Assembly (NCBI GenBank): GCA_002104935.1
Contig: MCGT01000026.1
Coordinates: 186,001-250,000 of the forward strand
Reading direction: 5' to 3'
Length of the DNA: 64,000 nt
Origin: Hesseltinella vesiculosa
Taxonomy: Eukaryota > Mucoromycota > Mucoromycetes > Mucorales > Cunninghamellaceae
Shown: positions 9,686 through 49,500 of the stretch, piece by piece
Layout of the letters: each line of letters begins with the position of its first letter
Position numbering within the stretch: position 1 is the stretch's first letter
The notes under the pieces: generated by a model
Databases searched by the model: none
What the model saw: the letters and a program-made list of their open reading frames with translations, nothing else
Told to the model about the DNA's origin: nothing
Program-made: the position numbers and the translations under genes

Positions 9686-12600
9686 TCAAGGGGATGCTGG
9701 AGATGTTGGAGAGGACGGTTCATCAGGATGTGATGCAGAAGTTGGGCAGATGACAGCATCATCCTCGAAGCTGGTAGAAATGGTGACAACAGGAACGTTT
9801 GAAGTTCTATCCACGGGAGCAGTCGATGGCTTGGCCTGAGCATCGTTTGTAGGCGACAGAGGAGGGGAACACATCACTCGCTCGGTAAAAGTATGCACAG
9901 CCATTTCCAATTCATGCTTTCGCACAGGCTTGCCAACAAAACCGTTCATACCTAACGAGTAGCACGACAGAAAGAGAACGGGGTGAGGCATGACAGCTTC
10001 CTTGTGGCGACCTACTTACCGGCTTGGAAGCACTTGTCACGATCGCCTGGCATGACGCAAGCTGTCATGGCAATGATGTAGGGCTTTGTCTTGGTAAAGG
10101 AGTACTTGCGGCGAATAAGCTCGGTAGCCTCAAGGCCATTCATTTTGGGCATCCAGACGTCCATGAAGATCAAGTCAATGGGCCATGCTTTGTCTCTAGC
10201 TTCTTTTACCATGTCGCAGGCTACTTCGCCATTGTTGGCTATCTTGCATTTGAGACCCATGCGACTCAGCATCCTGGAGAGCACCTTTTGGTTGACTGGG
10301 TTGTCGTCCACCAGTAAGCAATTCAGCCTGGCCAGGACTTCATCATAACTGCCACGATGCGTATTGGCATCTGTCGCGTCCCTATGGATGGAGCTCCCAG
10401 AAACCGTGGAATCCACGGTAGCCATGGAGATGGAAGAGTCAAAGGTAGAGCCGATGGAGGATCGAGGCGAGGCCAGGGTGAAGTCGGAAGAAGCGATTGA
10501 ATGGTGACGCTCGCTGGTGGGGCTGTGTGGACCAAAACTTGAGCCAGACAGCCGGTTTTGGTTTTTTTGGGCGTCATCACTTGCAGATCGGTGAGGAAAT
10601 TGTAATACCATGGGTGGTGCACGACTGGCGATGGCGGCAGCCAGAGCTGGGTTTGCATGGGGCAGGATGTGGTTGGGTGCGAAGGTGGGTGTCTTCAAGC
10701 CGGCTCGCATCAGGGTATCTATAAGGGTGGAAGTCCGGAACGGTCGGTACATCATGAGAGGAACAGCATCAAATGGATCAACCGCATCGATCATGGGTGT
10801 CTGAGGTAAACTGTCAACGTTGAAAAAGAGTTCGCGGTGGCTGACCAATGGCTGAATGGGGTCCTGCTTTGCTGGGTCCTCAGATGGAGGCTGCTGGGGT
10901 GGGTCTGTTGGGTGCTGCGGAGACGGCTCATTTGGCTGGTTCATTTGGCGCTGATCGGTCGTAAGAGACTGTTTTCTCTTGCGGCTCATAGCAAGGTTTC
11001 GGTGAGTAGAAGCCGGGGAGGAATTGGATCGCTTGAGGCGGAAGTCGTTGATACAAACGGTAGGTACATCATACAAAACAGGAAAAAGTTTGCGCAGGTA
11101 CTCCAGGGCCAGAATACTAGCAAGAAAAGAGAAGACGTTGTGAGTTTGTTCTTGGATTGGTAGAAGGGCGACCAGATGCTGCATTACCTTGTTGCCTTGC
11201 GATCCTTGTCAATGTTGCTGATAAGAACACCATCGACATCGACCACAAGAATGGGGGGGTTGGGTGACTTTTTGAGTTGCAGATCTTGGAAGATAGATTC
11301 TGCTTGTTCCATATTCACGATTTTTACCGAGATACCAAAACATTTGAAGGTCCGGGTCCATGCCAGCTGCATGTTGTGCTTTTCTGCAACGACGATCATG
11401 TTGCTGCATACGCTAGCCATTTTCTCAAGATGCTGCTGCTCGCCAAAGGTCAAGGTCTTGGGTTGCTTCTCGATCTCGATTCTGAACGTAAATGTAGATC
11501 CTTTGCCGTAAACTGATTCAACAGACTAAGAAGATGAGGTGGAAAGAGAAGATAGGGGGGTGAGGCCTATTTATCACGAGGGGGGGGGGGGCTCTTCATT
11601 TACCATATCTCCATTCATCATTCGGCAGAGTTGACGAGAAATGGCTAGGCCAAGGCCAGTGCCACCAAAATTCCTTGTGGTTGAGGCATCGACTTGTGTG
11701 AATGACTGGAAGAGCGAGTCGACTTTGTCCTTTGGGATACCAATGCCAGAGTCGGTCACGGAGAAATCCAAAAGCACTTTTTGGGGATCTTCAGCCTTCA
11801 CGGTCTCCGATGGCTTGACCAAGCTAACATGAGCATACACATAGCCTCCAGTTGGAGTGAATTTAAACCCATTTGATAACCTGGCGCCATGAAGTAAAAT
11901 AAAATGCGTGAATAAAGGGCGGGCTACCAAGGCATCCATCTACGTTGGGCAACTCACAAATTCAAAATGACTTGCCGTAGTCGCACCAAATCACCAACGA
12001 CCTTCACAGGCACATCAGCTTCCATCTCGTACCACAGAGCGACATCTTTTTCCAAAAAGTGAGGGTAAACAAGTTTCAGTGCACTCTCCACAGCAAACGT
12101 CTACACGAAGAAAAGAGGTTGAGCAAAGAAATGAGGATGAGCAGGCTGGTTTACCAAATCAAGGCCATTGTGTTCCAAAAGAAGCTTCCCGGATTCAATC
12201 TTTGAGAAGTCCAATATATCATCGATGATCGCCATGAGGTGGTTGCCTGAGGATTCGATGGTTTCTGCACAATCATACAGATCCTGGGGTAGATCGCTTT
12301 CCATCAAAATTCGAGACATACCAATCACAGCATTCATCGGTGTGCGAATCTCTGCAGTCAAAAGAGGAGGAGGAAAAAAAAAAGTTAGGCAGGTCTGGCG
12401 CGGGGCCGTTTCTCCTTACCATGCGACATGTTGGCTAAAAAATTTTGTTTGGCTATCGCGCCAGCTTCGGCCTTTTCTTTGGAAGCTTGCAGATCTGCAT
12501 AACAGATAAAAATGTGAGATTTTGAGAATCATACTAGTTAGCACCACTAGCAAATAAAAGGTACCTATCAACAAGGTTTGTGTCCTCTTTCGTTCTTCTT

Positions 12601-15600
12601 CCAGCTCCTGCGTACGCTGCTGTAGGTTGTTCGTTCGCTCGTAAACCAGACGTTCCATGTCCGTTGCATAGGCTTCCAGCTACGTGATGAGAGGGGTCAA
12701 CGGATCAGTCTCTAGGAGAGCTGCTTGTTTAAAATAAATTACCAACACAGCCATATTGTCAACCACCGACATGGTTGAAGAAAGGGAATGGTCGAGAGAC
12801 TTCATTCGGTCCTGTGGTTATTAGATAGAGAGATTAACCACATATTCAAAAAAAAAAAAAAAAAAAAAAAAAGCTTACGCAGATCTCATTGAGGGTTGGA
12901 CGACGGTGTGGCTCTTTGTCCCAGCAGTAAGAGATCAAGCTGTTGAGCTTGCTATAGCAGCTACGAAGGGTGCTATCGGAAACACTCTCCAAATCCACGA
13001 GTCGAGGTCGAAGATGTTCCCTGATGATGCGCTGGAAGAGAAGGTTTTCCTGCGCTCCATTGTTGAGCTCGTTGCTGTATTCTTGGTACGGTTTCTGGCG
13101 CGTCACAATTTCACACATTACAATGCCAACGCTAGAATGAAAAGAGTGGGTCAGCGATAGTCTCTATCGCCTTGAAGCCTTCTTGCCTGTAAATATCGGC
13201 CTTTTTTGAGGGCATGGTGATGTCCAACCCAGATGCTACGTTGACGATAGACTCAGGGGCCATCCAGCGCATGGTGACGGTATTGGGCAATATGATCCCG
13301 TTGCTGCAGCCTTGCTTCTGGAGCCGTTGAATGACGGCTTGGTCATACATGGATTGTCGCACCTTGTGCAGCCCAAAGTCGCAAATCTTCAGCTCCCATT
13401 TGTTGGTCACATAGCAAGAGGCGGAGGTCAGCAAGCCATGGAGACTGATCTTGGAGCGGTGGATGAAACGCATGCCTTCTACTAGGTCGTTTATCATCGA
13501 GAATTGGAAGATCCAAGTGAGACAGTAGTCATCGTTGGCCAGTATGTCGAACAGGGTCCCTTTGTTGCAGTATTCTATTAGGCAAGGTTTGGGAAGGATA
13601 GAAAATCGGTGAGCTCTATACACCTCCTTTTTCCTTTGCGCTTACCTTCGACAATGTAGGTGCCTCGGGTTTCAATGCAGACACCAATAAATTCGACCAA
13701 ATTGGCCGATCGACAATGCTTTAAGAGTCCGATTTCCTTGCGAATATCATCTTTCAGGTGAAGCTGCTTGAAACCGATTTGTCTGATGAACACCTTCAAA
13801 TTGCGACTGACAAAAAGCTACAATGAGACACGTCCTTTTACACCTCTGGTTTTTCTCGTCACTCACTGAATCCCTATGGCATTGTGAAAGGATTCGGTAT
13901 GGGGAGCTCGGCTTCTTGTGATCAACATGGATAGGCGGTTGTTGTTAGCATTTCTACAAAGACAACATTACAGCAATCGTTCAGTTTTTTTTTTTTTTAA
14001 CTTTACAATTGATTGGCCCTGGCAACTTCGGTTTGCGTTTGGTTATTCTTGGTATCCTGAAGGGCCCAATGGGGAACCTCTTCTTTGAGATTTTCATAGG
14101 CGGAGTCTTGCTGGTCAGCTATCTCATTGCAGAGGGAAATGGACCGAGTTGATCCTGGCTTATCAGTCATGCTGTTTGGGTGGTCGAGCATCATGTAGCG
14201 CATGGAAGGATGAGTGAGGTGGCTGTAGGAGAGGAGCCAGTTGTCGCTGTCGTTGCCGCCTGTCAAGTCAGCTTTATGCTGACGCCGCCAGTAACGCCAT
14301 AAAAAGTAAAACGATATGACGGCCAACAAACCAAAGACGATGGGGAGCACAATGGAGAGTATCACGCGATTTTTCCGGTCGTGGTCCTCGGTTAGGAATT
14401 GCTGGCAATAGCTATCCTGGTACACACGTTGGTCATTACAGGAGAGGCATTCGGTTCGAAGGGCGTTGGCAAGGGTGCCTGGTGAGCATGGAAGGCAGGA
14501 AGGTTGGTCGCTGGAGGCAGAGATGAAATTGTCCGAACAGGGAATGCACTGGATGGAGCGGATGGCATCGTGGCTCGGGGTCATGCAGTACGAAGAGGAT
14601 GCAAGGATGCTGTAATGCGTGCCAGGAGGACACATAAAGGGTTGAGGGTCGGCACGTACCCCGACAGAATTCCAAGGCTGGACAGACAGAGAGTTAGACA
14701 AAAGGATATTAAACAACGACAAGAAGCCAAGCTCATAAGAATCCAGCGACCTAGTGAGAAGAAAGTTAACAACACAGTACTTTTGATAGGGTATCCACTC
14801 CACTTGCCATGACATTTGGACGCGGTTCAGCATCAATGACCGCTGCTGTTGAAACAGATCCGAGGCAGTATAGAATGCTGTCTCGCCTGCCTGTTTTGGG
14901 TCTACGACGGAGTCCTATTGGTAATAATAAAAAAAGGGGGGAAAATAAAGCGGGAAAGCTTCTCACAACCAGTGCAAGTTCAAGAATCATACCAGGATAA
15001 TGGCGTTAAAGATGTATTCTGAGAAGGTGACAACAGAATCAACGTCGTAGCTGCCGTTGGACAGGTTGGACATGATGGAATTGACCATTCCGTTCACGTT
15101 GCTTTGGCTGCTGATATCGATAGTGTTGACAACGAGCTGCTCCGGCGGTATTGGTCCAGGAAAAGTCTGCAAGAGTGTTCTATAGAGTATGTCGCAGAAG
15201 GTTGTGTTTTTCCAGGGTCGCCCGTCTCCGAAGCAGACAGGGTTTTTAAAGCCGTTGTCCAGCAACATCTGTGCAGTCATCGCGGCCAAATCCATTGTGT
15301 CCAAATAGGGGTTGAATATACGCCTAAGGAAACGTCAGGCAAGACTATGGCATAGGCAACGCCACTTACGAGCTGTTTTCAGGGATGATGAGCTCTTCGA
15401 AAAAGGTACCAATGATCGAGACAGGGACGTTCTCTTCGGTGCTTTTGGTGATTGTATAGTTGTTGACATAGGGATGGCTGGAGAGCAAGACGATGCCATC
15501 TACATTAGGGTTCGACAGAAAATTGGTCACACTTGACATCAGTTTTTCTGGATAGCCGATGTAGTCTCCCTATTGAAAGAGTGAGTTCACAAGAGTCAGA

Positions 15601-16912
15601 TGCGCTCCAACGTCCTACCGAGGTATTCGTAAAAATGTTCCAGCTGATCTTGTTTGCTAACTGCTGGATCCCGGAGAGGATGTTGCGTCCGTAGGAGTCG
15701 CCTAAAGAATTAGGAATGATCACACCGACGGTGTTGTTGCGACGATTAGGGTGAAGCAGGAAGCCTTGTCGATCTCTGCCGCTTTCAGTGGTATTAAGGT
15801 TGCTGTTGGTTATTACGATTGGTCCGGTGGGGATGGTTTGGTTTCCATATACGTCAAAACTGGTGAGGTACTAAAAAAAAAAAAAAAAAAAGTGAGCTTT
15901 CAGCTGGCCACCTGCTAATTTAATACGCGCGACTGACCTGCAGATAGAGATACACCACTGGCAATGCAGATTGGTAATAAGGTAGCTGACTGATCCCCAC
16001 CGTTGTGTCAGGGAAGCTGTTGAAAACTACGTCAAGATCCTCACCATCGAGGTCAACAAAACCCGCACCGATTCTTTTGCCATTGTGTACACCACTCATA
16101 TTCATGAGAGCCCCTGCAACACTATTGCTTGCAGCCTACGATATATTAGATAAAGAAACTGAGAGATCAAAAAAAAATAGTTTGGAAATGCCTACCACAC
16201 CACCGATGGCAATCATGCTGTCATAAGCGCCTTTGCTGAAGTTGTGAACGACATCATCGACAGCAGAGGTAGAGTTTGATACTTGCAAAAACCCATGGAG
16301 TGGATTTCTAATGGTCGTGCGGATGGCAGCGTAGCGTCCTTCAGCATTGACATTGCCGAGAGGAGAGGGTGAGATGACCAAGGGATGAGAATAGCCACGT
16401 TCGAGCAATTGCTGAGCAATAGCTTTGCCAAGGATTTCGTCTGATGTCAACACGCGAGCGAGACCCAGTTCGGATGCATACGATTCGCCCAATTCAAATA
16501 TAATTACAGGAAGGCGTAATGCTCGTACGGATGCAATGGCATTGGCGACTTGTAGGTTTGGAATAGTGGTGATAATCCCATCGACATTCTACGGAAATAG
16601 GAAAGAAGTGAGAGGGGCGACAAGCGGAGAAGCGAAGTGGGCATGATTTTTTTTTTTTACTCCGTAGGTAACAGCGTCAAGTATGCTCTGCGCCATGAGG
16701 TCTGTTTGGTCTTCTTCAAAGCGTTTCCAAATGAGATTAATGTTGAGCAAAGAGGCAGTATCAATGGCCCCTTTTCTTGTGTCGCCGCCTTGGTGGGTAT
16801 GAATAGCATTGCTCTGATAAATAAAGGAAAATGTGGGCTTCGTGTTATTGAACCTGGTGAGGTTGCAGTTTGGCACCGAGATTTCCGTTGCTATCAACGA
16901 AATTGGCTTCAT
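9686..16912 (-). CDS. Receptor hybrid histidine kinase: PBP x2 - Cys-rich - TM - kinase homology - signalling helix - HisKA - ATPase - receiver
   Basis: Twenty exons from 16912 down: 16912-16661, 16588-16196, 16135-15938, 15870-15619, 15569-15370, 15323-14993, 14914-14007, 13953-13867, 13806-13646, 13574-13187, 13131-12879, 12811-12743, 12679-12565, 12494-12420, 12351-12155, 12100-11958, 11880-11604, 11525-11188, 11116-10020, 9951-9686; 1,999 residues, all phases agree. Residues about 25-300 and 320-560 are two periplasmic-binding-protein-like folds (DGIITTIPN; NNTVGVIIPNSLGDSYG). A Cys-rich stalk follows (about 637-712), then a membrane helix (about 726-748). Residues 873-1141 are a pseudokinase: Arg882 in place of the VAIK lysine, HGLLTSASC at 973-981 in place of HRD, DFG intact at 993-995. 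A helix (LEAYATDMERLVYERT) precedes HisKA with His1227 (MSHEIRTP). The ATPase has N, G1 (DSGIGIP) and G2 (GGTGLGL) boxes. The receiver has Asp1865, Thr1897 and Lys1919. No signal peptide is visible, so a 5' exon may be missing. Exon 10 ends in a GC donor. Confidence 0.85.
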
Positions 16913-17659
16913 AGGTGTGATTTAAGAGCATGCACTTTGAAAATACTAAATCCAAAAAAAAAAACTGATATAATGGGCTGTAGCAAAAAAAAAAAAAAAA
17001 AACGAAAGAAGAACTGTTTCGCAGGTTTCATACAGAAAAGGTGGAAACCCATCCCTTCGCATGGATCGATTGGCTCAAAATCATTGATGTTTGACGATTT
17101 TCCCTCAAACTGGAACTCTGGCTTTTCTAAATGTCTTCCATTCCTACCTCAACCATTGGCCCCCATTGCTTCTTGATCTTTCCATTTCATTTCCCTTTTC
17201 GTCCTTCTTCAGCTCTCGTCGCCACTTCTAAGCACTCTCCTCACCAAGCCAATACAGCGTGTCCGTGTAGCCAAACGGACGGTAGCTGATCCATGGCAAG
17301 TATAACCAACATGTTTTTTATTTATTGCATGCAGGCCGTCCAACCGGAAGGAGCCAAAAGGAAAGACCTTTCCCTCGTCCCAGCTTCAGCAAAAATAAAT
17401 CGGGCAAGCGTAGGTTTCGGTTTTTTTTTTTTTTTTTCTGTTCGCTTTTTTGCAACATGATTCCTTTATACCAGCAAGCCATGATGAGAACATCAAGATC
17501 GCGGCTTATGTCATGCAGCCGATGGCGTACGGTAACGACCTTGCATTGTGTTCTTCTTTAGCGTTGCTCATCACTGCTTCTTTTGTGGACGGGTAGATCC
17601 AAATCAAGAAAGCTGATCTTGTCATTCGATCTTTATCTAACAAATCACCACCAAGAAAC
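16913..17659. other. Spacer between the receptor kinase and the zinc-finger gene
   Basis: It contains A runs (about 16955-16965 and 16986-17002). On the minus strand a Met near 17032 starts a very hydrophobic Phe-rich frame (MKPAKQFFFRFFFFFLLQ) that could be a missing signal-peptide exon of the receptor kinase, but it depends on a homopolymer and cannot be joined with confidence. Confidence 0.35.
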
Positions 17660-17890
17660 ATGCCCGAGATAAAACCGCGGTTTCGCCCTGGCGATTGGAC
17701 ATGTCCTCAATGTCAATTCATCAATCACGCCCACCGAACCCAATGCCGAGAATGCGATCATACCCTCGATGGACAATCGCGAACACCCAGTCTTGGTGAT
17801 TGGATCTGCCCCGAGTGCCAATATTACAACTTTAGACGGCAACTTGTTTGCCGGAAATGCACCACCCTCAAACCGATCCCAACAGCCTGA
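17660..17890 (+). CDS. Small protein with two RanBP2-type zinc fingers
   Basis: A 76-residue single-exon protein made almost only of two RanBP2-type fingers: GDWTCPQC...CREC and GDWICPEC...CRKC, each with the W-C-x2-C-x10-C-x2-C spacing and the conserved GDW. Such fingers bind single-stranded RNA (ZRANB2 type) or ubiquitin. The Asn between the Cys pairs (QFIN, YYNF) is the RNA-binding kind of residue. The partner is unknown. It could be the end of a longer gene, but no upstream exon was found. Confidence 0.7.
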   Translation: MPEIKPRFRPGDWTCPQCQFINHAHRTQCRECDHTLDGQSRTPSLGDWICPECQYYNFRRQLVCRKCTTLKPIPTA

Positions 17891-18209: not shown

Positions 18210-18569
18210 TTAAGCAAACGTCCAAGAAACAGGACTGATGACACCCACAGCCAAGTTGGCCAGTTTCTTGAAGGCAGCAGGCGAGAGATCAATACTACCA
18301 GAGGCACAGCCAGGGCAGGTATCGACGACGGTGGCGGTCACGGATTTGCTGCCAGACGTGACCTTTATGCTTTTGCCACAGTAGCTCTTGCTCATGTCAG
18401 CAGCACTCAGAGCCACCACCAATTCATTGTCATTGTTTGTTTCGCCGCAAGAACCGAGGCCAGTGTTGTAGTAGGTGGCCTTGCCAGTGTTACGTTTTTC
18501 GATGGGAGCAGCTTGCACAGCAAGCAAAGTGGTCAAAGTTAGAGTAATCAAGCCAGCAGAGAACTTCAT
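18210..18569 (-). CDS. Secreted double-psi beta-barrel (RlpA-like) protein
   Basis: A 119-residue single-exon protein. Residues 1-20 are a signal peptide (MKFSAGLITLTLTTLLAVQA). A PIEKR sequence follows that looks like a Kex2-type processing site. The mature domain has the DPBB layout: GKATYYNTGLGSCG at the start, then ALSAADM, CGKSIKV, and VVDTCPGCASGSIDLSPAAF, the last being the hallmark segment with the catalytic-site-like Asp. In fungi this family includes expansin-like, barwin-like and protease-inhibitor proteins; wall or plant-surface binding is likely, but the activity cannot be assigned. Confidence 0.85.
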   Translation of the reverse strand: MKFSAGLITLTLTTLLAVQAAPIEKRNTGKATYYNTGLGSCGETNNDNELVVALSAADMSKSYCGKSIKVTSGSKSVTATVVDTCPGCASGSIDLSPAAFKKLANLAVGVISPVSWTFA

Positions 18570-18630
18570 GATGAGATGGATGAAAGGTGGAGAAGAGATG
18601 GAGATAAAAAAATTTTTGATGGTGAAGTGC

Positions 18631-18639
18631 CTATTTATA
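18631..18639 (-). promoter_or_regulatory. TATA box of the barrel-protein gene
   Basis: On the minus strand the sequence reads TATAAATAG, about 62 bp upstream of the ATG at 18569. Confidence 0.5.
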
Positions 18640-20014
18640 CACCTGTCTTTTTTCGTGGTGATGAAACGAGGATATCTAATGATCTGGCCAATAACAATAG
18701 CTCAGCCAGGTCCCTTTCTCGTTTTTTTTTGGTGCCCATCTTTTTTTCCATTGATTGTTCGTTGATGCCCAATAACGTTGTTGCCAAGAAAACAGTCTAG
18801 CTTGTGCAACCTCAAAGCGCCATATGCCCCCCCTCTTTCTTCGACCAAGTATTAAAAGGCAAGGGATAACGGACAGCTATTTTTTTCGGGGAAAGATCTC
18901 CGTCAATACATTTCTGTCAGCTGAAGATCAAAAAGCCTATGGGGTATACACTTTTATTTGTTTGTTTATACCCCTTTTCCCCCGTGAGTTGGCCATAGCT
19001 TTTTTCTAAAACCTCTTCCGAGCCAGCTTAGTTTTTTTTTGACAGAAACCCGATCTGTGCAACCCCCCATCATGCATCTACGTCACTCCGAAGTCAACAA
19101 AAAAAAAAAACGGAGAAACAATCAATTCCGCCACCTTCGTCGGCGAGAACAAAAAATCCAGATGGGCAGGAACAGCTGCCAAAATAAACAATCACAAAAG
19201 AGTTTTCCTTAAATATCAACCTCTCATTAGAAGCACACCAATACCATTGGCTGACTCGTTTAATTGGCCAACAATGAATTCTGCATCACATTTGAGCCTT
19301 CTTTTATTCTTTGGCGCTTTCACGTGGTTGCCGCAAGGCTTTTTTATTCTTCCAGGCAAAAATAAACTGAGAACAGCGCCAGAGCCCTGAAACGGGGCTG
19401 CTGACATTTTCAGCTAGCAGCAAAAATAAAAAATTTAATATAAAAATGAAGTAAAAGCTCTTCATCAACGGATACTACTTCAAAATGAAAAGCTTTATCG
19501 CCCATGTCTTTTGAGCTCGATTCTCCGGTCCGGCCATCAACCTACTTTGTAGATGATATATCGTTCCATCGTTTTATTCTTTTTTGCGTCATTGGCTTGA
19601 CGGTTTCAACGAAAAAGGAAACCCAGCCAAAAAAAAAGGCAGGGTGCAAAAAAGATTCAGAGTCAGCATGACGTGTCGCATCTCATTTTGAAAATGGTTC
19701 CACGCAAGAGCAATGACCGTTGCCATGCAGTTTTAGAATTCCTGGTTGACCAAACGGTCTAAAGCTATCCAGTGGCACTCTATTCCTATACAAAAATATC
19801 GGAAATAGGATAGGCCCAACTCATAGCACCGGCCCATCCATCCACCCTCGACTGTGTTGCCAGCAAGGAAGGAATAGCTGACACCATAAATGTGCTACCT
19901 CGGCAGCCAGCCGAACGTCCTGCCGAAACAAATGCTCGCTCTACCAGGTTGTCAGGGAGGAGAGTCTGTGGAAACCACAGCCAACCGACGAGGATATGCG
20001 GGATTTGAATGATA
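18640..20014. other. Gene-poor start of the repeat island
   Basis: A/T-rich sequence without a convincing coding frame on either strand. Several poly-T and poly-A runs of 8-12 bases are present. Faint echoes of the dispersed repeat begin around 19970. Confidence 0.45.
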
Positions 20015-28748: not shown

Positions 28749-29764
28749 TTATTTTTCAACAGGCTGGATCACAAAGGCGACAAGAGGGAAGTGTGTGTAG
28801 ACCGTGCCGACTTGATCATCTTGGCGCTTCAAGGTGACACGCTTGTCAGTAAGTTGCACAAGCTCACCAACGACCGGGATTCGGGCGTAGTCAGTGGGGG
28901 CGACGGTCACTTGTTGCCCAAGGGTGAAGACCGTTTGATCGTTCTGCATGCTTGGTTCCAACGGGTATTGCTCTTGCTTAGCCACCGCCAAAGCTTCGTC
29001 TGCAGTCAAAGTGGGCAAGGTGGCGGTGAGGGGATGCTTACCAGCAACAGCGATCTGGGCAAAATGGGCGTCCAGCACAGGGAACTTTTCTTCAATGTAG
29101 CCGGGCATCATGGCTTTGGCAAACATGGTGACCATGGCCAACGAGAAATCAGCTTCGGTGGGCAATTCCGTGTCCAGCACCCAGGAGGCTGTGCCATCAG
29201 GAGCAGAAGGGGGCATGCCATCGGCTAAGCGAGTAAATTGGGCATGCAGTTCCACAGCACGGAAGGGCTTCATGAGTGGGTGCATCACCGGATCAAACGT
29301 GTCGACGATTTGTCGGCGGTCCTTGAGAAAGGCCTCGGGCAGCATAGTGATGTCGGGCTGTGTGGTGATGGCTGGAAAGGTGTTTGTATCAACAAACCAG
29401 CAGAGTCCTTGGGCCATGCCTTTGGATGGGAATCCACTGCGTGTCGCCGGATACAAGGAAGGCGTAGGGAACCTTTCTTCCAGCTCAGCAACAATGGCCT
29501 TTGTATCACAGTAAGCATGATTGCCAATTTGAAGAATAGGCGTTTTGCGATATCTGGATAGCAATGAAGAAAAATGAGTGCCTTGCTGCCAATTTTTCAT
29601 TTGACATACCCGCCATCCAAAGGACGACGTTGAGGACGAGGTTCGGCCATGTCGATATACACGGTTTTGTAAGGCACTTGCTTGTAGTTCAAGATCCAGG
29701 CAATCTTGTTTGCAAAAGGTGATTGAGGATACCAGTGGAGAATGATGGTTGGTTGATTTGTCAT
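28749..29764 (-). CDS. Glutathione S-transferase-like protein, copy 1
   Basis: Exons 29764-29610 and 29553-28749, 319 residues. The N-terminal thioredoxin-like GST fold is visible: a strand before WYPQSPFANKIAWIL, with Ser of SPF at the usual catalytic position, and KTPILQIG..AYCDTKAI with the cis-Pro turn and the Asp-Thr in place of the E/D-S glutathione contact. The C-terminal half is helical (DFSLAMVTMFAKAMMPGYIE), and a further beta-like domain of about 80 residues ends TVYTHFPLVAFVI. It forms a head-to-tail pair with the next gene; both have the intron at exactly the same codon (after LDGG/LDAG). Likely cytosolic detoxification or redox role; substrate unknown. Confidence 0.8.
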
Positions 29765-30033
29765 ATTGAGTGAAAGAAAATATTCAAGAGAAAAAAAAAA
29801 AGAAACGGCGCTAGACTGACGTCTTTTTAAAGAAGTTGCCCATTTTGGGAAGGCGGGAACTCTTGTTGTTGAGGTTCAAGGTTTTACTTTTTCAACTCGC
29901 GTTCAGACCCCACTTCGCATTTGTCATCTTCCAAGAGTGCAAAATGGAGAAGATTGATTTATATAATTTTTATTACAAAATAAATCAAGGCGTGGCAAAA
30001 AAAGGGTAAAGAGACAGCTTCCTTTTTTTTTTT

Positions 30034-31087
30034 TTACAGGCGGGCGCCAGGTTCAGCAGGAGTGATGACAAACCCGATCAGCGGGAAATGTGTGTAGACG
30101 ACCCCGGCTAACTTTGATTGATTCTTGATGACAACACGGTCAGTCGCCAAGGCAACGAGTTCGCCCTCGGAAGGCTGACGACCAGTGTCAAGGGGGGTCA
30201 CAGCCACCTTTTGCCCAATTTGGAATTGACCGCTGACCAGGCCAGGTTCAACCACGGAAGGCTCCTGGCTGGCAATGGCCAGGGCGTCCTCCGCAGTAAG
30301 GTCGGGTTGTTGGGCGGTGAGATGATGTTGTCCCAGGCTTGCCATTTGCGTAAAATGGGACGCCAATAGAGGGTAACGGCTCTTGATTAAATCAGCGCCA
30401 AGGATGCCGCGCAAGAAGAAGGTGATCATTGCCAGGGAAAAGTCGGCTTCGGAGGCCGTGTCGGTGTCCAGCACAAAGCTGGTCGAGCCATCAGCTCTGG
30501 TGGTCAGGCCCTGGTAGATTCGGTCGACCTGAGCATCCAGCTCGATACGTAGGTATGGCTTGAGGGAGTTGTATTTCTCGACATTAAACGTCTTGGCGCC
30601 ATTAAACGAGGCACGGTCCTGCATGAATGCAGCTCCCAGCCGACTGATGTCGAACTGGGTCGTCACGGCCAAGAAGACAGGCCCGCTCAAGTAGGAGCTG
30701 AGGCCGAGAGCCATGGTTTTGGTAGGAATGCCGGCCCTGGTCAGTGGGTACACTGAGGGCACAGGAAACCTTGCTTCCAGCTCGTCAATGATCAGTCTTG
30801 TGTCTGCAAAGACTTGGTTCCCGATTTGTAAGATGGGCGTTTTGCGATAGCTGCGGAGAAAAAAAAAAGACAAAATCAATTTTTCATCTGCTTCACATGC
30901 CTCTGGTCTTTTTTTTTTTTTTTTTTTTTTACCCAGCATCCAAAGGTCGGCGCAGAGGTCTTGGCTCGGTCTTATCATTTAGCACCGTCTTGTACTTGAT
31001 TTGTTTGTAGTTCAGGATCCATGCAATTTTATTGGCAAAAGGAGAGGGTGGATACCAATGAAGAATAACCGTTGGCTGGCTGGTCAT
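30034..31087 (-). CDS. Glutathione S-transferase-like protein, copy 2
   Basis: Exons 31087-30933 and 30850-30034, 323 residues. Same layout as copy 1: WYPPSPFANKIAWIL with the SPF Ser, KTPILQIG then ADTRLII, a helical C-terminal half and a closing beta-like segment (GVVYTHFPLIGFVI). The intron sits at the same codon and holds a run of about 22 T. Protein similarity to copy 1 is clear, but many positions differ throughout, so the tandem duplication is not recent. The extra C-terminal domain is shared, so it predates the duplication. Confidence 0.8.
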
Positions 31088-35424: not shown

Positions 35425-36825
35425 TTAGTAAGCGATCTTTCTGCCACGGGCAGCGCTCTTCTTGCCATGACGGCCTCGGACACCCTTTGTGCTCTTGTGG
35501 CTACCGCCCATGTGACCTTCCGATTTGTGGTGAGGAGCTTGGCCTTCGGAAGCCTTGTGTTCAGCACCAGCATGGCCTTGGTGCATGCTACCAGAGTGAC
35601 CAGCCTTGCTTTCGTGGTGTTGGGGTTGGGCATGGGATTCGGGTTGGTGGTGTTGAGGTGGTTGTTGTTCGTGTTGCATGCCGTGCCAGCCAGGTTCTTC
35701 AGAGTCCTTGACGTCAAGGTGGTCCATGTGCTTGTAGCCTTCCTGGTGCCAGCCTTGGTGGTTGGGCACATCGATGGTAGCAACGGGGCTGACAAAAAAA
35801 AAATCAGGAATGCGAGGTCGGAATTTTTTTTTTTTTTTTTTTTACCTTCCAGTAGCCTTGACAACGGTCCATTGGGTCTTGGTGACGGTCAAGGTGTGAG
35901 CAGTGTCACGAGCAGGAGCCATAGGCAATTCTTCGTGCCAGTCCCAGTGACCATGGCCACCGCGGTGGGAGCTCTTGAAGTCTTCTTCTTCATCATCATC
36001 GTCGTCGTCATCCTCTTCTTCTTGTTGGCGGCTGCCCTTGGTCTTGTTGCCACCCTTGCTGGAGCCCTTGCTGGAACCCTTGCTGGAACCCTTGCTGGAG
36101 CCCTTGTTGGAGCTCATGCTATCGCCCTTGCCGTAGCCCTTGCTCATGCTGTTGCCCTTCATGTCTTCGTTGTCGGAATCGTCGTCGGAGTCGCCGTCGC
36201 TATCCGAGTCGCCATCGCTGTCGTCGTCGGACTCGTAGTCCTTGCCCTTGCCCTTGCCCCAGATCTTGGACTTGCCCTTCTTTTCATCCTTGGACTTCTT
36301 CTTGCCACCCTTGGCCAGCACAAGGTTGCTACGTTGGATCAGACGGAGAGCGGCGGTGCCGGCGTCGTAGGGGCTGTGAGCCTTGATGGAGATGTCGTGG
36401 GCTCCCTTGTCCAGAGGGAAGGTACCCTTGCTGAAGCGGTCGTCTTGCAATGCTTCTTGAGGGGTGTTGGCGAAGATTTCAGCATCTTCGTTGTAGTCCA
36501 CATCAGAGGTAGAGCCGATCAATTCACCGTTGTCGAACACTTCAAAGACATCGCCGTGATGCTTGAAGTCGGTCACCTGCAGACGCACAGGTTCATCCAA
36601 GTTGAACTTGAAGGATTCTCTGGCCAAGGCATCCTTGCCCTTCCAGCGGAACAGGGAGAATTCTTCGGCCAATTCTTGAGCCACCTTGTCACCGATGGCA
36701 ACAGGCGTCAAGTCATCCAAAACTTGTTCAACAGCTTGCTTGGAGTCGCCAGCAACTTCGGTTTCAGCGCGCACAGTTTGCAACAGCAAAGCAATGGCAA
36801 TAGCAATGGTCGTTTTCATCACCAT
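35425..36825 (-). CDS. Secreted acidic protein with Ser-Lys-Gly repeats and a His-rich tail
   Basis: Exons 36825-35846 and 35788-35425, 447 residues. Signal peptide MVMKTTIAIAIALLLQTVRA. Residues about 60-165 look like a small beta-sandwich (FKFNLDEPVRLQVTDFKH, GDVFEVFDNGELIGSTSDVD). Then come a Lys/Gly-rich patch, a Ser/Asp-rich acidic patch, a run of GSSK units, a stretch of about 14 Asp/Glu and a C-terminal His/Gln-rich region ending KKSAARGRKIAY. The beta-rich part resembles a domain common in secreted zygomycete proteins, but I cannot name it. The charge pattern suggests wall or metal/calcium association; that is inference. The GSSK units are also a 15-bp DNA repeat at about 36056-36110. 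Confidence 0.75.
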
Positions 36826-37218
36826 GTTGGAAAGTAGTGTGTAAAAAAAAAAAAAAGTGTTTTGAGAGAAAAAACAAAAACTAAAAAAAAAAAACAGAAG
36901 AAGAAAGAGAAGTGAAAAAAAATTCGCCCTGCTTTTCTCTCTTTTTTCATTGCAAGCAAACATCGCGAACAGCGTCCAGATTAAAACGATGGCTCATACC
37001 AAATGAAAAATTATTTTAAATCAAACCTCAAGGAAAAATATTGGATTCCCATTGTGCAAACACCTCTAAAAGAAATAAGAACAAGTCACCGACACGTTCC
37101 AATGCCATCTCTCATTGACCGTGCCTGGCGGACCTTGCCGTCGGAGCTGTGCCTTAATGATGAAAAAAAAAAAAAAGTCTCGGCCAGCTCTTTTTCTTTG
37201 ATTGCTTTTTACTGCTCC
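36826..37218. other. Divergent promoter region
   Basis: It separates the acidic secreted gene (-) and the SmgGDS gene (+). It has several A and T runs (36843-36856, 36882-36894, 37160-37175). No gene is seen. Confidence 0.45.
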
Positions 37219-39612: not shown

Positions 39613-39799
39613 TGATCTTGATAGGTGCCTGGTTTTTTGTATTTATTTTTCATATGTATTTGTAATAAGGTGGATGGATTTGTAGCGTTCAATAGAAAAC
39701 TAAATGCCAGAGATTTATGCATCCGAAAAGGAAAGTTTGTGTCTTTCCTGCCACTCTTTATTATTATATTTTTTTTTTTTTTGATTGTTTGCTAAAATA

Positions 39800-42324
39800 A
39801 TGGTAGATGCCAAGCTGATCGAGCAACGAGAATCACTTCCTGTGTTTGAATACAAACAAGATCTGATTGATGCTGTTCGTGAATATAGCATCCTTGTGGT
39901 GATTGGTGAGACGGGTTCTGGCAAAACGACACAAATCCCCCAGTATTTGCTGGAGGCTCTGGATGATAATCAACGGATTGGAGTCACTCAACCACGGCGC
40001 ATTGCTGCCATCACTGGTAATGATAGAGTGGGGTTTTTTTTTCTTATTGGCACAGACGAGCTCATCAATGATCTCCAAATAGTGGCGAAGCGAGTCAGCG
40101 AAGAACAAGGTGTAAAGCTCGGCGATGCTGTGGGCTATTCGATTCGATTCGATGATTGCACCAGCAACAAAACCCGCCTGAAATACATGACCGATGGTGT
40201 TCTGCTACGAGAAGCAACGCTAGATCCGCTACTAAGCCAGTACTCTGTGGTGGTGATCGACGAAGCTCATGAACGGACGCTAGAAACAGATGTCCTCCTT
40301 GGCCTGCTGAAACAAACCCACCGACTGCGGCCCGAGCTCAAGATCCTTATCATGTCCGCCACCCTACAAGTTGAAAAGTTCTCGGACTTTTTCGATGGCT
40401 GCCCATTGTTCTCCATCCCTGGCCGCACCTTCCCCGTCGACGTCCACTATGTGCCGGAGGCCCGCAAACTGTCGGCCCTCAAGACCTCCTTTGTTGACCT
40501 GGCCGTCGATACCGCCTGGCATATCCACCAAGTACACCGTAGCACGTCCGGCGACGTGCTCGTCTTCCTCACCGGCCAGCATGATATCGAGCGCGCGTGC
40601 AAGCTGTTCCGCAAGCTGGCCACCAAACATCAACAGCTAGACCACGTCAGCATCTGTCCTCTCTATGCCAGTATGGAAACCTGGGACCAGAAATCCGTCT
40701 TTGCCCCTCCACCTGCAGGCGTGCGCAAAATCGTCTTTTCCACAAACGTAGCCCAGGTATGCCCAAAAAAAAAAAAAAAAATGCGGATGACTTGGCTGAC
40801 TCGCCTACGTAGACTTCCGTGACCATCCCAGGTATTCGCTACGTCGTGGACTCTGGCTTTATCAAGGAGAAATCGTATGACCCAGTGACAGGGATGGATG
40901 CACTGTTGGTGACGGAAATCAGCCAAGCGACAGCCATTCAGCGCGCAGGACGAGCTGGTCGCACCGATGCTGGTAAGGTGTATCGCCTTTATACCGAGGA
41001 CTGCTTTGACAAGATGCGCACCGACCGGATTCCTGAAATCCAACGAAGCAGTCTGATGACCACCGTTCTTGGCCTGAAAAAACGCAACATCATCGACGTC
41101 TTGCACTTTCCGTTTCTGGACCCACCTGACCCACACTTGGTCAAGACCGCACTCAAACATCTGTTTTTACTGGGCGCCATCGACGACGTGGGCCGCCTAA
41201 CAACCCTGGGCGACCAAATGAGTCACTTCCCTCTGCACCCATCGTTGGCCCGTGTGCTAGTGGCCTCAGCCACCGACTACCACTGCAGCCACGAAGTAGC
41301 CACCATTGCCAGTATGATGGCCGGTGAACTGGACCTGTTCCGCACACCCACGCCTCCTCGACACCACCACAAGCACCAACGTGGCGCACCCATGGCCGAC
41401 CCAGAGGTTCAACAAGCCACGGACGACGAAGCCATGGCCCGCGCCATGGTCGAGGCAGAGGAATGCAAACTACGCCTAGCGCATCATAGTGGCGACCATA
41501 TGACGTATCTCAATGTTTGGTATCAATGGCGCAAACGACGGTCTGACCCAAAGCAACAACGGCAATGGTGCCGCGACAATTATGTTCAAAGCAAGGTGCT
41601 TGAGACAGCTGTGAATGTACGAGATCAGCTGATGGATGTTCTAGAAAAACTGCGGCTGCCTCTGAACCATGCACCTCTGCTCGACAGCAGCACCACTTCT
41701 GACAAAGACAGCGATCGTGACACCGGCAAAAGGAAAAAATCAACTCGCCGCCACCAAGTCGACGCCGTCCCGATCCTGCAATCTTTTGTGACCGGCTACT
41801 TTAGCAACGTTGCCAACAAGCAGAAGCATCGTCATGTGTTTTCGCACTATTCCCCCGATTCGCACCTGTTGGATGACGGCGGCGTTGCTGCGCTGGAACT
41901 GCCAGCTTCGTCTGCCGCCGCCTCATCCGCAGCTCTGATGGCCCTGCATCTTCACCCGCTCTGCTCGCTCTCGGATATGATTGACCGTCACCGGCTACGG
42001 TACAGTGACCTGTCCTGGGTCATTTATACGCATGTCACCTATACCCACCGTGCTGTCATGAAAGGCGTCAGCAAGATCGTCTGGGACTGGGTCAAAGCCA
42101 GTGATGGGCTGGCCCGTGTGCACCGGCTAGCCAAGACTCGATTGAATGGTGAAGACCGGCCCGATGTGGAAGAGATGGAGGACGAAAAGACAGAGCAAGA
42201 AATCCAGCAACTGGAAATGCAGCAACAAGCCGAGGAACAGCGCCGGCTAGACCAAGTCAAGCGACGAGCGCAAGAAATCGAGCAAATCCGCCAGCGTGCC
42301 TTAACCCGACGTCGTGTGCAATAA
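39800..42324 (+). CDS. DEAH-box RNA helicase, DHX40-like
   Basis: Exons 39800-40016, 40083-40756, 40813-42324, 800 residues. All motifs are present: I GETGSGKTT (from residue 36), Ia TQPRR, II DEAH (132-135, in VVVIDEAHERT), III SAT (IMSATLQ), IV VFLTGQHDIE, V STNVAQTSVTI and VI QRAGRAGRT. The winged-helix/HA2 region (LKKRNIIDVLHFPFLDPP) and the OB fold follow. The C-terminus adds a Glu/Gln-rich coiled tail ending QRALTRRRVQ. The helicase core best fits the DHX40/Prp22 branch; a splicing or ribosome-assembly role is likely but not fixed. There is an insert of low-complexity His/Arg text near residue 510. Confidence 0.9.
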
Positions 42325-46588: not shown

Positions 46589-49500
46589 ATGCCTTTTAGA
46601 CCACGTGGCCGTGGGGGACGCCGCGGACGGCCACCAAAGCGAAATGGCCATCCGCCTCAAGAAACAACACCTCCGATCAAACCCACAGAACCCAACCTGA
46701 CATCAACCTCGGCGCCATCGTACAAACCCAGAGAAGAGCGCTCATTCAAGGACTTCTTTCCTGATCTCAATGTCCACGATGCACTGATTATCCAGCAAGA
46801 AACTACAGAACAGCCGCCGCTCCATATGCCCATGACTGTTGCCCTGGCTGAGCAGCATCCGCTCAACACTGACCCCGTTCCTTCCGGCGCCCAGGCTGCT
46901 ACAACACCTACGCCAGACTTATCATCACTCCCGGCTCATCCAACTGTAAATGCAGACGATGACAAAGTCAGCGTTCCTTCCCCATCGCCGTCTGTTCAGC
47001 CTGATGCACCTGTTTTGACTACCTGGCCCACGTCTCGTCCACTCCACCCAAAAGAAGGTGACAGCCATCAAGCACTGTCCACCCGTCCTCAAGCCCATTT
47101 GACCTCGGCCGCCGGCTCCGTCAACCTCGATACCTTGCCCAAACCCAAGTTCTCAAAAGTCATCGAACGCCCCAAGCAACGTCGAGGCTCCCGCCGGTCG
47201 TCACGCCATCAAGACGACCAACCAGCTCCCGCCGATCCCGCCGACTCCCCAGTCGATGATACCTTGCAAATGGCTGTTTACGAACGCCCCGATAACCATT
47301 ACATCCGCTACATCGAGCCCACTGAACAAGATCTTTATGAAATGGTCGAATACGACATGGACGAACAAGGTAAAGCTGCCTAGAAGAAGAAGAAAAACAA
47401 TGAAATCTGATACCCCCTTTTTTTTTTCCCAGATGAAATTTGGTTGCATTTGTTGAATGTGGAGCGAAAGGCAGATAACACCGGCGAAGTGCCCAGCAGT
47501 CTGTTTGAAAATGTCATGGACAAGCTGGAAAAGGAATGGTTTGATTTGGTAAGTCTCCAGAGCAAATGAAAAAAGTAAGACTCAGCCTTTCTCTAGGTCA
47601 AGCACTTGCCAAAGCATACAGATGATGAACCTGTCTTACCCGAGGACTCCACTTGTGCAATCTGTGACGACGGTGAATGTGAAAATAGCAACGCCATTGT
47701 ATTCTGTGACGGTTGCAACTTGGCTGTGCATCAAGGTGAAAAAAAAAAAAAAATCGAGACACCGGCCGATGTCTAACCGACTCTCGCCTTTTTTTATTTT
47801 TATTATCTTGTGGACTAGATTGTTACGGCGTGCCATACATTCCAGAAGGCCAATGGCTATGCCGCAAATGCATGGTATCACCGGACAAACCAGTGTCATG
47901 TGTGTTTTGTCCAAACGAGGGCGGTGCCTTTAAGCAGACAAATACCAACAAGTGGGGCCATTTACTTTGTGCCATCTGGATTCCCGAAGTCGGGGTCAGC
48001 AACAGCGTGTACATGGAGCCCATCGACAATATTGAAGCAGTGCCCAAGAGTCGCTGGCGCCTGACCTGCTACATCTGCCGCAAGAAACATGGCGCTTGTA
48101 TCCAATGCGATAACAAACACTGCTTCACCGCCTTTCATGTGACATGTGCTCGCTGGGCTCGCCTGTGTATGCGCATGAAATCGCTTGGCACCCATTATGA
48201 CAGCGTAGTGCTCAAGGCCTATTGCGATCGCCACACCCCCCGCGAATACCAAGACGAAGTCGATGTCGAAAAATGCGTCGTTGCTGCCCAACGGCTGCTG
48301 GACCCCAAAGCCGCACGCAACCGTGACCGTGCCGCTGCTGGGACCCTGATTCCCCGCCGTCGCCATGTCGACGAGTATTTGCAAACCAGTGCTTTTGACG
48401 ACAACCCAAACGACTGGGTAGCCGGAGATCAGGCCGCCCATCGCAAACCTGGCCGTCCGCCTCGTGGCCGCCCTGGCCGCCCGCCCAAACGCAAACTGCA
48501 CGACTTGCAAGCAGCCTCCAGTCAGCTACCGTCTTCTTCCTTGACACCTCTATCGCCCAGTGTCAAGGCCGCTCGTGCTCACCAACACCATTACTCGGCG
48601 GGCGCTCCCATCGCGCCCGACGTGATTCTCAGCCGGCTGGAAACAACTTGTTTCCGCCAGTACTCCCAGCTGCGCAAGAAACCCCAGCTTTTGGCTACCA
48701 TATGCCGCTACTGGTCACTTAAACGTGAATCACGCCGTGGTGCTCCTCTTCTCAAACGTCTTCATCTCGAGGTAAGAATGAATCAACGAAAAAAAAAAAA
48801 ACCGCTCACTGACATGGTTCACTGCGTTCTAGCCATGGACTGCCTCATCCACACAGCTGAAGCAAACAGAAGTGGAAAGAGCACACCGGGCCTCAGTAAG
48901 AACAGAAGCTTAAGCGACCTTCTCCAAAACTCACAGAACTCTCTTTTCCCCTGTCAGGCAATCATGACCCTGCGATCAGATTTGGAACGCATTCGATTGC
49001 TGTCGGAGCAAGTTCAGAAACGTGAAAAGCAAAAACTGGATCGCATCCGTCGTCAAAAAGAATATTTGGAATTGATATTATATCCTTTGGAATACATTGT
49101 CAAACCCATTATCAATGATTTGATCGAGTATGTAGATTGCATAGGACACTCTAGTGCATATCGCCCATGGACAAAGATCTAACGCTTTTTTTTTGTATAA
49201 AGCATGGACAAGAAAGAATACTTCATGTACCCAGTCACACCCGACGTTGCGCCTGATTACCACCAGGTTATTGACAAACCCATGTGTTTTACTGATGTCA
49301 TCAACAAATTCCATGCCCATCAGTATGATACTCTGGAGGCCATCGAGGTAAGCAATCAAAAAGTAGACCAAACCTCGTTGTCGACTGCCTACTTTAAAAT
49401 ATCATTTTCCGTAGATGGACCTGGACCTGATTTGGAACAACAGCATGACCTACAACCGAAGTGAAACTGTGTATTACAAATTGGCCAAAAGGATGAAAGA

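Follow-up and report, generated by a model that had tools for sequence, protein, structure and literature searches.

Does a fungal genome encode a cell-surface receptor in which the layout of a receptor guanylyl cyclase ends in a histidine kinase? The question is raised by a gene on the minus strand of a 64,000-nucleotide stretch of Hesseltinella vesiculosa DNA (contig MCGT01000026.1; the whole stretch is hereafter called the window), which a preliminary description had read as a receptor whose cyclase is replaced by a phosphorelay. We consider it likely that the product is a type I membrane hybrid histidine-kinase receptor in which an outside ligand would signal through an inactive kinase-homology domain (KHD) to a phosphorelay. 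Feature coordinates are window positions on the minus strand unless marked otherwise.

Gene structure and splicing

The receptor gene (9686–16912) is real, and the agreement behind its coordinates lies far beyond chance. Homologue-guided spliced alignments, together with the introns of a paralogue in the same genome, give 1,980 codons spread over 21 exons, with some uncertainty over the start codon. The in-phase joining reported earlier stands, but the counts given with it (20 exons and 1,999 codons) do not; judging from the numbers, the longer reading probably equals the present model plus the 57-nt intron at 14751–14807 read as 19 codons. Introns are 46–78 nt long, 18 being GT-AG and two GC-AG.

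The model was checked by spliced protein-to-genome alignment, each run using the genome and a single homologue only (P0001, P0002, P0003, P0110 and P0111, of which P0001 and P0110 belong to the same species). All five homologues recovered the joins 13867/13806, 14808/14750 and 13187/13131. The first of these, spanning the intron at 13807–13866, had been named beforehand as the critical point; no break occurs there, and the paralogue has an intron at the same position and phase. The majority of the remaining within-domain joins were also concordant across alignments. Departures from the model comprised two joins placed elsewhere by P0003 (16140/16073 and 11201/11150), one exon start in the P0002 alignment (14890) and the exon after 14007, in a variable linker, which starts at 13911 or 13914 in three of the five alignments versus 13953 in the model. 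The alignments show additional gaps within linkers, and extra introns in low-complexity linkers were taken as such gaps and not kept.

Of the 20 introns, 17 have a paralogue counterpart of identical phase at a site no more than one alignment column away. Both GC-AG introns, one at 14751–14807 (GCAAGT..CACTAG, recovered by spliced alignment) and the other, intron 11, at 13132–13186, have GT-AG counterparts in the paralogue at the same place and phase. Because of these shared introns and the GT-AG state of the GC-AG pair in the paralogue, the evidence for one single gene is strong. Chance splicing, considered as an origin of the fused frame, is disfavoured by both the homologue alignments and the paralogue introns.

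Kinase-homology domain and signalling helix

The KHD (residues 856–1124; 12806–13805), delimited by Pfam, PDB search and family alignment, is followed by a signalling helix (residues 1136–1196; 12457–12772), delimited by PDB profile, helix-only search and family alignment. A Pfam scan of the spliced window protein, run on an earlier model of 1,968 aa, matched PK_Tyr_Ser-Thr at 7.5e-32. Searched against the PDB, the KHD plus helix of one protein scored 120 bits with natriuretic peptide receptor 1, 72 with guanylyl cyclase C and at most 65 with other kinases, and a four-member family profile of the same region raised these to 189 and 117 bits, followed by RIPK1 at 95. The helix of P0110 alone (69 aa, E up to 10) returned three sequences, all natriuretic peptide receptor 1, at a weak E of 0.018; Pfam matches to the helix region were likewise weak and included HNOBA at 0.01 and 0.13.

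In all nine family sequences the catalytic Asp is replaced (HGLLT in the window protein) and Thr takes the place of the Lys two positions further along, and for these reasons the KHD is predicted to be inactive. The Asp of the DFG motif is retained in eight of the nine; at the beta-3 Lys position the window protein has Arg, and all seven other sequences that extend this far have Lys.

Trees of 20 and then 25 kinase domains, each with just two cyclase-receptor rows and with long branches, grouped the family with these two receptors at supports of 88/91 and 93/94, respectively, both under the tool's 95/80 mark. A diatom cyclase (P0128) was omitted from the first tree, where only 123 aa had been caught, and in the second, in cut form, did not group with the two cyclase receptors. 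Collectively, assignment of the KHD and helix to the receptor-guanylyl-cyclase type is well supported by sequence comparison and less firmly by the tree.

The best-surviving alternative, which we nevertheless regard as unlikely, traces the kinase-like domain back to the soluble group X hybrid kinases, as a descendant of their Ser/Thr-kinase domain, and treats the guanylyl-cyclase likeness as convergent. Group X kinases likewise have a kinase-like domain linked to HisKA, a GAF-HisKA frame exists in the genome, and the sub-threshold support and the position of the diatom cyclase both leave room for such an origin. However, the larger tree, in which bacterial fusions and no fungal group X domain were included, placed the family with the cyclase receptors; grouping it with the four bacterial kinase–histidine-kinase fusions, which are group-X-like, was rejected at p-AU 0.017 in this tree with its long branches, and GAF was not found in the Pfam scan of the window protein.

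On the preferred assignment, the guanylyl-cyclase layout proposed earlier holds for the KHD and signalling helix, on PDB matches and tree, and fails for the ectodomain, which is of sugar type. What the family has in common with guanylyl-cyclase receptors, as far as sequence can tell, is the chassis and not the whole receptor. The Pfam scan of the whole window protein gave no Guanylate_cyc match that would mark a class III cyclase domain; HisKA comes after the helix.

Histidine-kinase output

HisKA, with the phospho-acceptor His1208 (12188–12453), HATPase_c with its conserved boxes (residues 1310–1432; 11472–11995) and a receiver with Asp1846 (residues 1794–1911; 9896–10317) were delimited by Pfam and family alignment, matching at 3.9e-20, 4.5e-26 and 1.9e-22 (Response_reg), respectively. 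The earlier assignment of these three elements is borne out by the Pfam matches and by key histidine-kinase and receiver residues that are preserved wherever the family models reach, with HisKA occupying a cyclase's place. The relay residues exist but are renumbered, from His1227 to His1208 and from Asp1865 to Asp1846. The profile check suggested at the outset thus found PK_Tyr_Ser-Thr, HisKA, HATPase_c and Response_reg in the window protein itself, and Peripla_BP_4 in homologue ectodomains.

An additional, degenerate receiver, absent from the preliminary description, probably lies before the true one (residues 1454–1672; 10681–11408) and contains a long, disordered-looking insert. Compared by profile with the family's true receiver, it reached 60% probability locally (E 8e-5) and 34% globally, and in a homologue model its strands and helices alternate; the corresponding stretch of P0001 gave no Pfam match at E 10.

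Coupling of the KHD to this output is suggested by the spacing between the helix motif and the phospho-acceptor His, which is free of alignment gaps in all nine sequences and, by pattern, amounts to 71 residues in seven of them, the pattern having caught an earlier site in the other two. A model of the inner half of the homologue P0113 draws one 89-residue helix across this stretch, at low confidence.

Against five homologues and the paralogue, the window protein shows identities of 27–34% in the binding modules, 26–43% in the stalk, 43–52% in the KHD, 60–70% in the helix, 87–94% in HisKA, 58–65% in HATPase, 22–32% in the degenerate receiver and 62–68% in the receiver, with the lowest values (11–31%) in linkers. 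A rapidly evolving exterior joined to a slowly changing output would be well suited to ligands that diverge.

This profile bears on a second alternative, marginally less probable than a group X origin, in which a vestigial or constitutive kinase half leaves the receptor to serve chiefly as a scaffold or decoy. The predicted death of the KHD agrees with it, as would a degenerate receiver that may hold the kinase off; against it stand the preserved key residues of kinase and receiver and the rank of HisKA as the most conserved part of the protein.

Ectodomain, stalk and membrane helix

The outer half is predicted to comprise two periplasmic-binding modules, a Cys-rich stalk and a single membrane helix, so that the whole protein reads as a putative type I membrane receptor joined to a hybrid histidine kinase. 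Module 1 (residues 25–315; 15769–16840) is of the CUT2 sugar-binding type: Peripla_BP_4 was matched in five of six homologue ectodomains, and a profile of homologues retrieved 4ru1 from the PDB at E 4e-23. On the window module alone Peripla_BP_4 reached 4.6e-5, below the cut-off. Module 2 (residues 327–610; 14654–15735) has a LacI/ribose-binding fold, with XylFII at rank 2 of its fold list. The stalk (residues 629–697; 14393–14599), of Ephrin_rec_like/NCD3G type, was recognized in homologues and located in the window by alignment.

The transmembrane helix (residues 707–725; 14309–14365) was called by Kyte–Doolittle hydropathy scan only; it is the sole segment in the window protein, with further weak ectodomain segments in P0003 and P0110. 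This order of two sugar-binding-protein-like modules, stalk and one helix is the one first proposed, now confirmed through homologues, profile, fold and hydropathy.

No ANF_receptor match appeared in the whole-protein Pfam scan or among 15 families searched on homologue ectodomains, a search in which HMMER filters can lose weak matches. By sequence and fold criteria, the ectodomain is assigned to the sugar-type periplasmic-binding branch (CUT2/LacI-like), not to the ANF-receptor family. An exon-by-exon search of the genome did not find Peripla_BP_4 although two receptor loci carry such modules, and that search is therefore weak.

Gene start and public annotation

The true start codon probably lies elsewhere than at 16912, because no signal peptide is present there, whereas the homologues and the paralogue open with hydrophobic leaders. 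These leaders were recognized by eye at the N-termini of P0001, P0002, P0003, P0112 and the paralogue; only that of P0001 exceeded the cut-off used in the hydropathy scan. We infer as a candidate an upstream leader exon at 16947–17052, with Met at 17052 or further in and a donor at 16946, which a 56-nt GT-AG intron would join to the exon starting at 16890; it is located in a low-complexity poly-T stretch. A RanBP-type zinc-ribbon frame at 17597–17890 (plus strand) lies just upstream on the opposite strand and bounds the 5′ side of the gene.

The public protein DM01DRAFT_357356 (1,046 aa), labelled guanylate cyclase in UniRef, has a different first exon and is 100% identical to the window protein over the aligned part. 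It terminates 18 residues past KKADIY, in the kinase fold, by reading into GC-AG intron 11, and because the model ends in this intron the histidine-kinase half is missing from the public record. That two adjacent genes exist here, a truncated KHD receptor and a separate histidine kinase, is highly improbable: the public end is its support, but that end falls within a kinase fold at an intron matched by a GT-AG intron in the paralogue, all five homologues span 13187/13131, and the models of other species hold both halves in one protein.

Family and distribution

The paralogue (contig C45, locus L018, 1751 to about 9334) encodes a protein of 2,043 aa that begins with a leader peptide, and its KHD groups with that of P0003 from Cunninghamella blakesleeana in the tree. 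Including it and the window protein, the family found numbers at least nine sequences in seven Mucorales species, five belonging to the Cunninghamellaceae and one each to the Lichtheimiaceae and Mucoraceae. The order from ectodomain to receiver is present in the window protein, the paralogue, P0001, P0002, P0003, P0112 (with a piece missing at the end of module 2) and P0111 (whose model starts within module 1). Partial models are P0110, which starts within module 1 and ends in HATPase, and P0113, which starts within the KHD.

Three protein searches contributed to this set. The first (109 proteins, with scoring confined to the top 8,000 candidates) yielded at least three proteins that combine a binding module, a kinase, HisKA and a receiver, the second (27 proteins) gave five members, one of them found before, and the third (25 proteins) gave the window's own protein; since such searches favour close relatives and best-scoring candidates, the species spread is a lower bound. 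The same domain order, in part from incomplete models, was found in six other Mucorales species and in the paralogue, and by sequence the receptor layout is conserved in Mucorales.

Proposed mechanism

In the favoured phosphorelay-receptor model, the protein would work as a dimer, and the arrival of a small molecule, possibly a sugar or a polyol, would close either or both of the binding modules. The change would be relayed by stalk and membrane to the KHD, acting as an allosteric hinge that may alter how the helix running into the first HisKA helix is rotated or packed. Phosphorylation of His1208 would thereby be switched, followed by transfer to Asp1846 and onward to a histidine phosphotransfer (HPt) protein and then to response regulators. 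An outside ligand driving a two-component relay through a dead kinase is plausible on the predicted architecture.

Several points weigh against this model. The outer modules were recognized through homologues, profile and fold, the window protein itself giving no Pfam match for binding modules or stalk at E 0.1 in the whole-protein scan; the inner-half model is poor (P0113, mean pLDDT 48), and because of this the continuity of the helix leans on the low-confidence 89-residue prediction and the gap-free spacing. Where the window gene starts is uncertain, the public gene model splits the gene, and the model as a whole draws on sequence.

Comparison with known receptor systems

Receptor guanylyl cyclases carry an outer binding module with the periplasmic-binding fold, and how the signal passes through their inactive kinase is still debated. 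The Mucorales receptors resemble them in having one membrane helix, an inactive KHD and a signalling helix, the KHD and helix being related by sequence, and differ in their ectodomain (two tandem sugar-type modules and a Cys-rich stalk) and in their output, a HisKA-HATPase-receiver series in contrast to a class III cyclase.

Group X hybrid kinases, whose features are given in part by PMC4965123 and PMC6944256, are soluble proteins with a kinase-like domain and GAF. They share with the window protein a kinase-like domain ahead of HisKA, HATPase and receiver; the window protein differs in its membrane helix and in giving no GAF match in the Pfam scan, and the Mucorales KHD is apparently of other kinship, in a tree with bacterial stand-ins. 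Group VI osmosensors and CHASE-domain kinases are likewise membrane hybrid kinases with an outside sensor, built with two membrane helices around an outer loop and a Cache or CHASE domain in the parts of PMC6944256 and PMC5285503 covered. Unlike group VI, the window protein shows one helix in the hydropathy scan, a cleaved leader being assumed for the homologues, and no CHASE domain in the Pfam scan.

Bacterial XylFII-LytS also couples a sugar-type binding fold to a histidine kinase. There the binding protein is separate from the kinase, whereas the Mucorales receptor fuses two modules, with the KHD lying between them and the kinase. ShkA of Caulobacter comes fourth among the folds listed for the inner half, a comparison that bears on HisKA and ATPase only; it is a soluble hybrid kinase with a degenerate first receiver and without a KHD.

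The statement that no fungal receptor of this form had been described agrees with the searches made of the open-access literature, which showed none, with the reservation that the early-fungal kinases drawn in Fig. 2 of PMC5285503, or the older classification cited by reviews, might include one. The portion of the group table in PMC6944256 that was covered holds no such receptor. A 2016 review (PMC4965123) states, in the part available, that predictions do not place most fungal histidine kinases at the cell surface, group VI excepted, and the accessible part of a 2017 survey states that most unprecedented early-fungal histidine kinases do carry membrane helices (PMC5285503).

A broader reading, to which we give an even chance, is that the pseudokinase and helix of receptor guanylyl cyclases form a portable cassette for transmission that either predates its two outputs or was exchanged between them, leading to a cyclase in animals and, through the same helix, to a phosphorelay in Mucorales; the Mucorales family would then be a distinct class of cell-surface receptor and, of the six histidine-kinase loci located in this genome, perhaps the sole class at the membrane. 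Such a natural cassette on a histidine kinase would offer, on one and the same chassis, a second output that is independent and simple to assay. Fungi would also gain a receptor through which outside ligands feed the phosphorelay; the public gene model, which stops in a GC-AG intron, conceals this fusion.

Genomic context

The genome (27.05 Mb, 85 contigs) was searched exon by exon, which yields lower bounds and some fragmentary matches: at least six HisKA places, at least one HPt place and at least 15 receiver places. Of the four HisKA places outside the receptor family, two have HAMP repeats alongside, one has GAF and one has PAS. These four, seen as frames and not full genes, appear to resemble known fungal groups and may include a membrane helix.

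A search of the genome for a guanylyl cyclase gave two class III cyclase places (L019 and L020), whose cyclase frames are closely similar by eye. One carries LRR and PP2C beside the cyclase, a layout we take to be that of fungal adenylyl cyclases; the other was scanned at the cyclase frame only. This suggests that the two are duplicated adenylyl cyclases, and no KHD was found in the frames scanned, which are not complete genes.

Elsewhere in the window, a small secreted-looking double-psi beta-barrel protein with a weak barwin match is encoded at 18210–18701 (minus strand). Two adjoining frames at 28749–30978 (minus), alike by eye, look like a probable tandem pair, the first with a glutathione-transferase N-terminal match slightly under the cut-off. 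A frame at 35842–36993 (minus) has GSSKGSSK repeats and acidic Asp/Ser-rich stretches, with no Pfam match at E 0.001. On the plus strand, a DEAD/DEAH-type helicase with HA2 domains spans two frames at 39785–42324, and an extended PHD-finger protein, possibly a subunit of a histone-acetylation complex, is encoded at 47740–49182.

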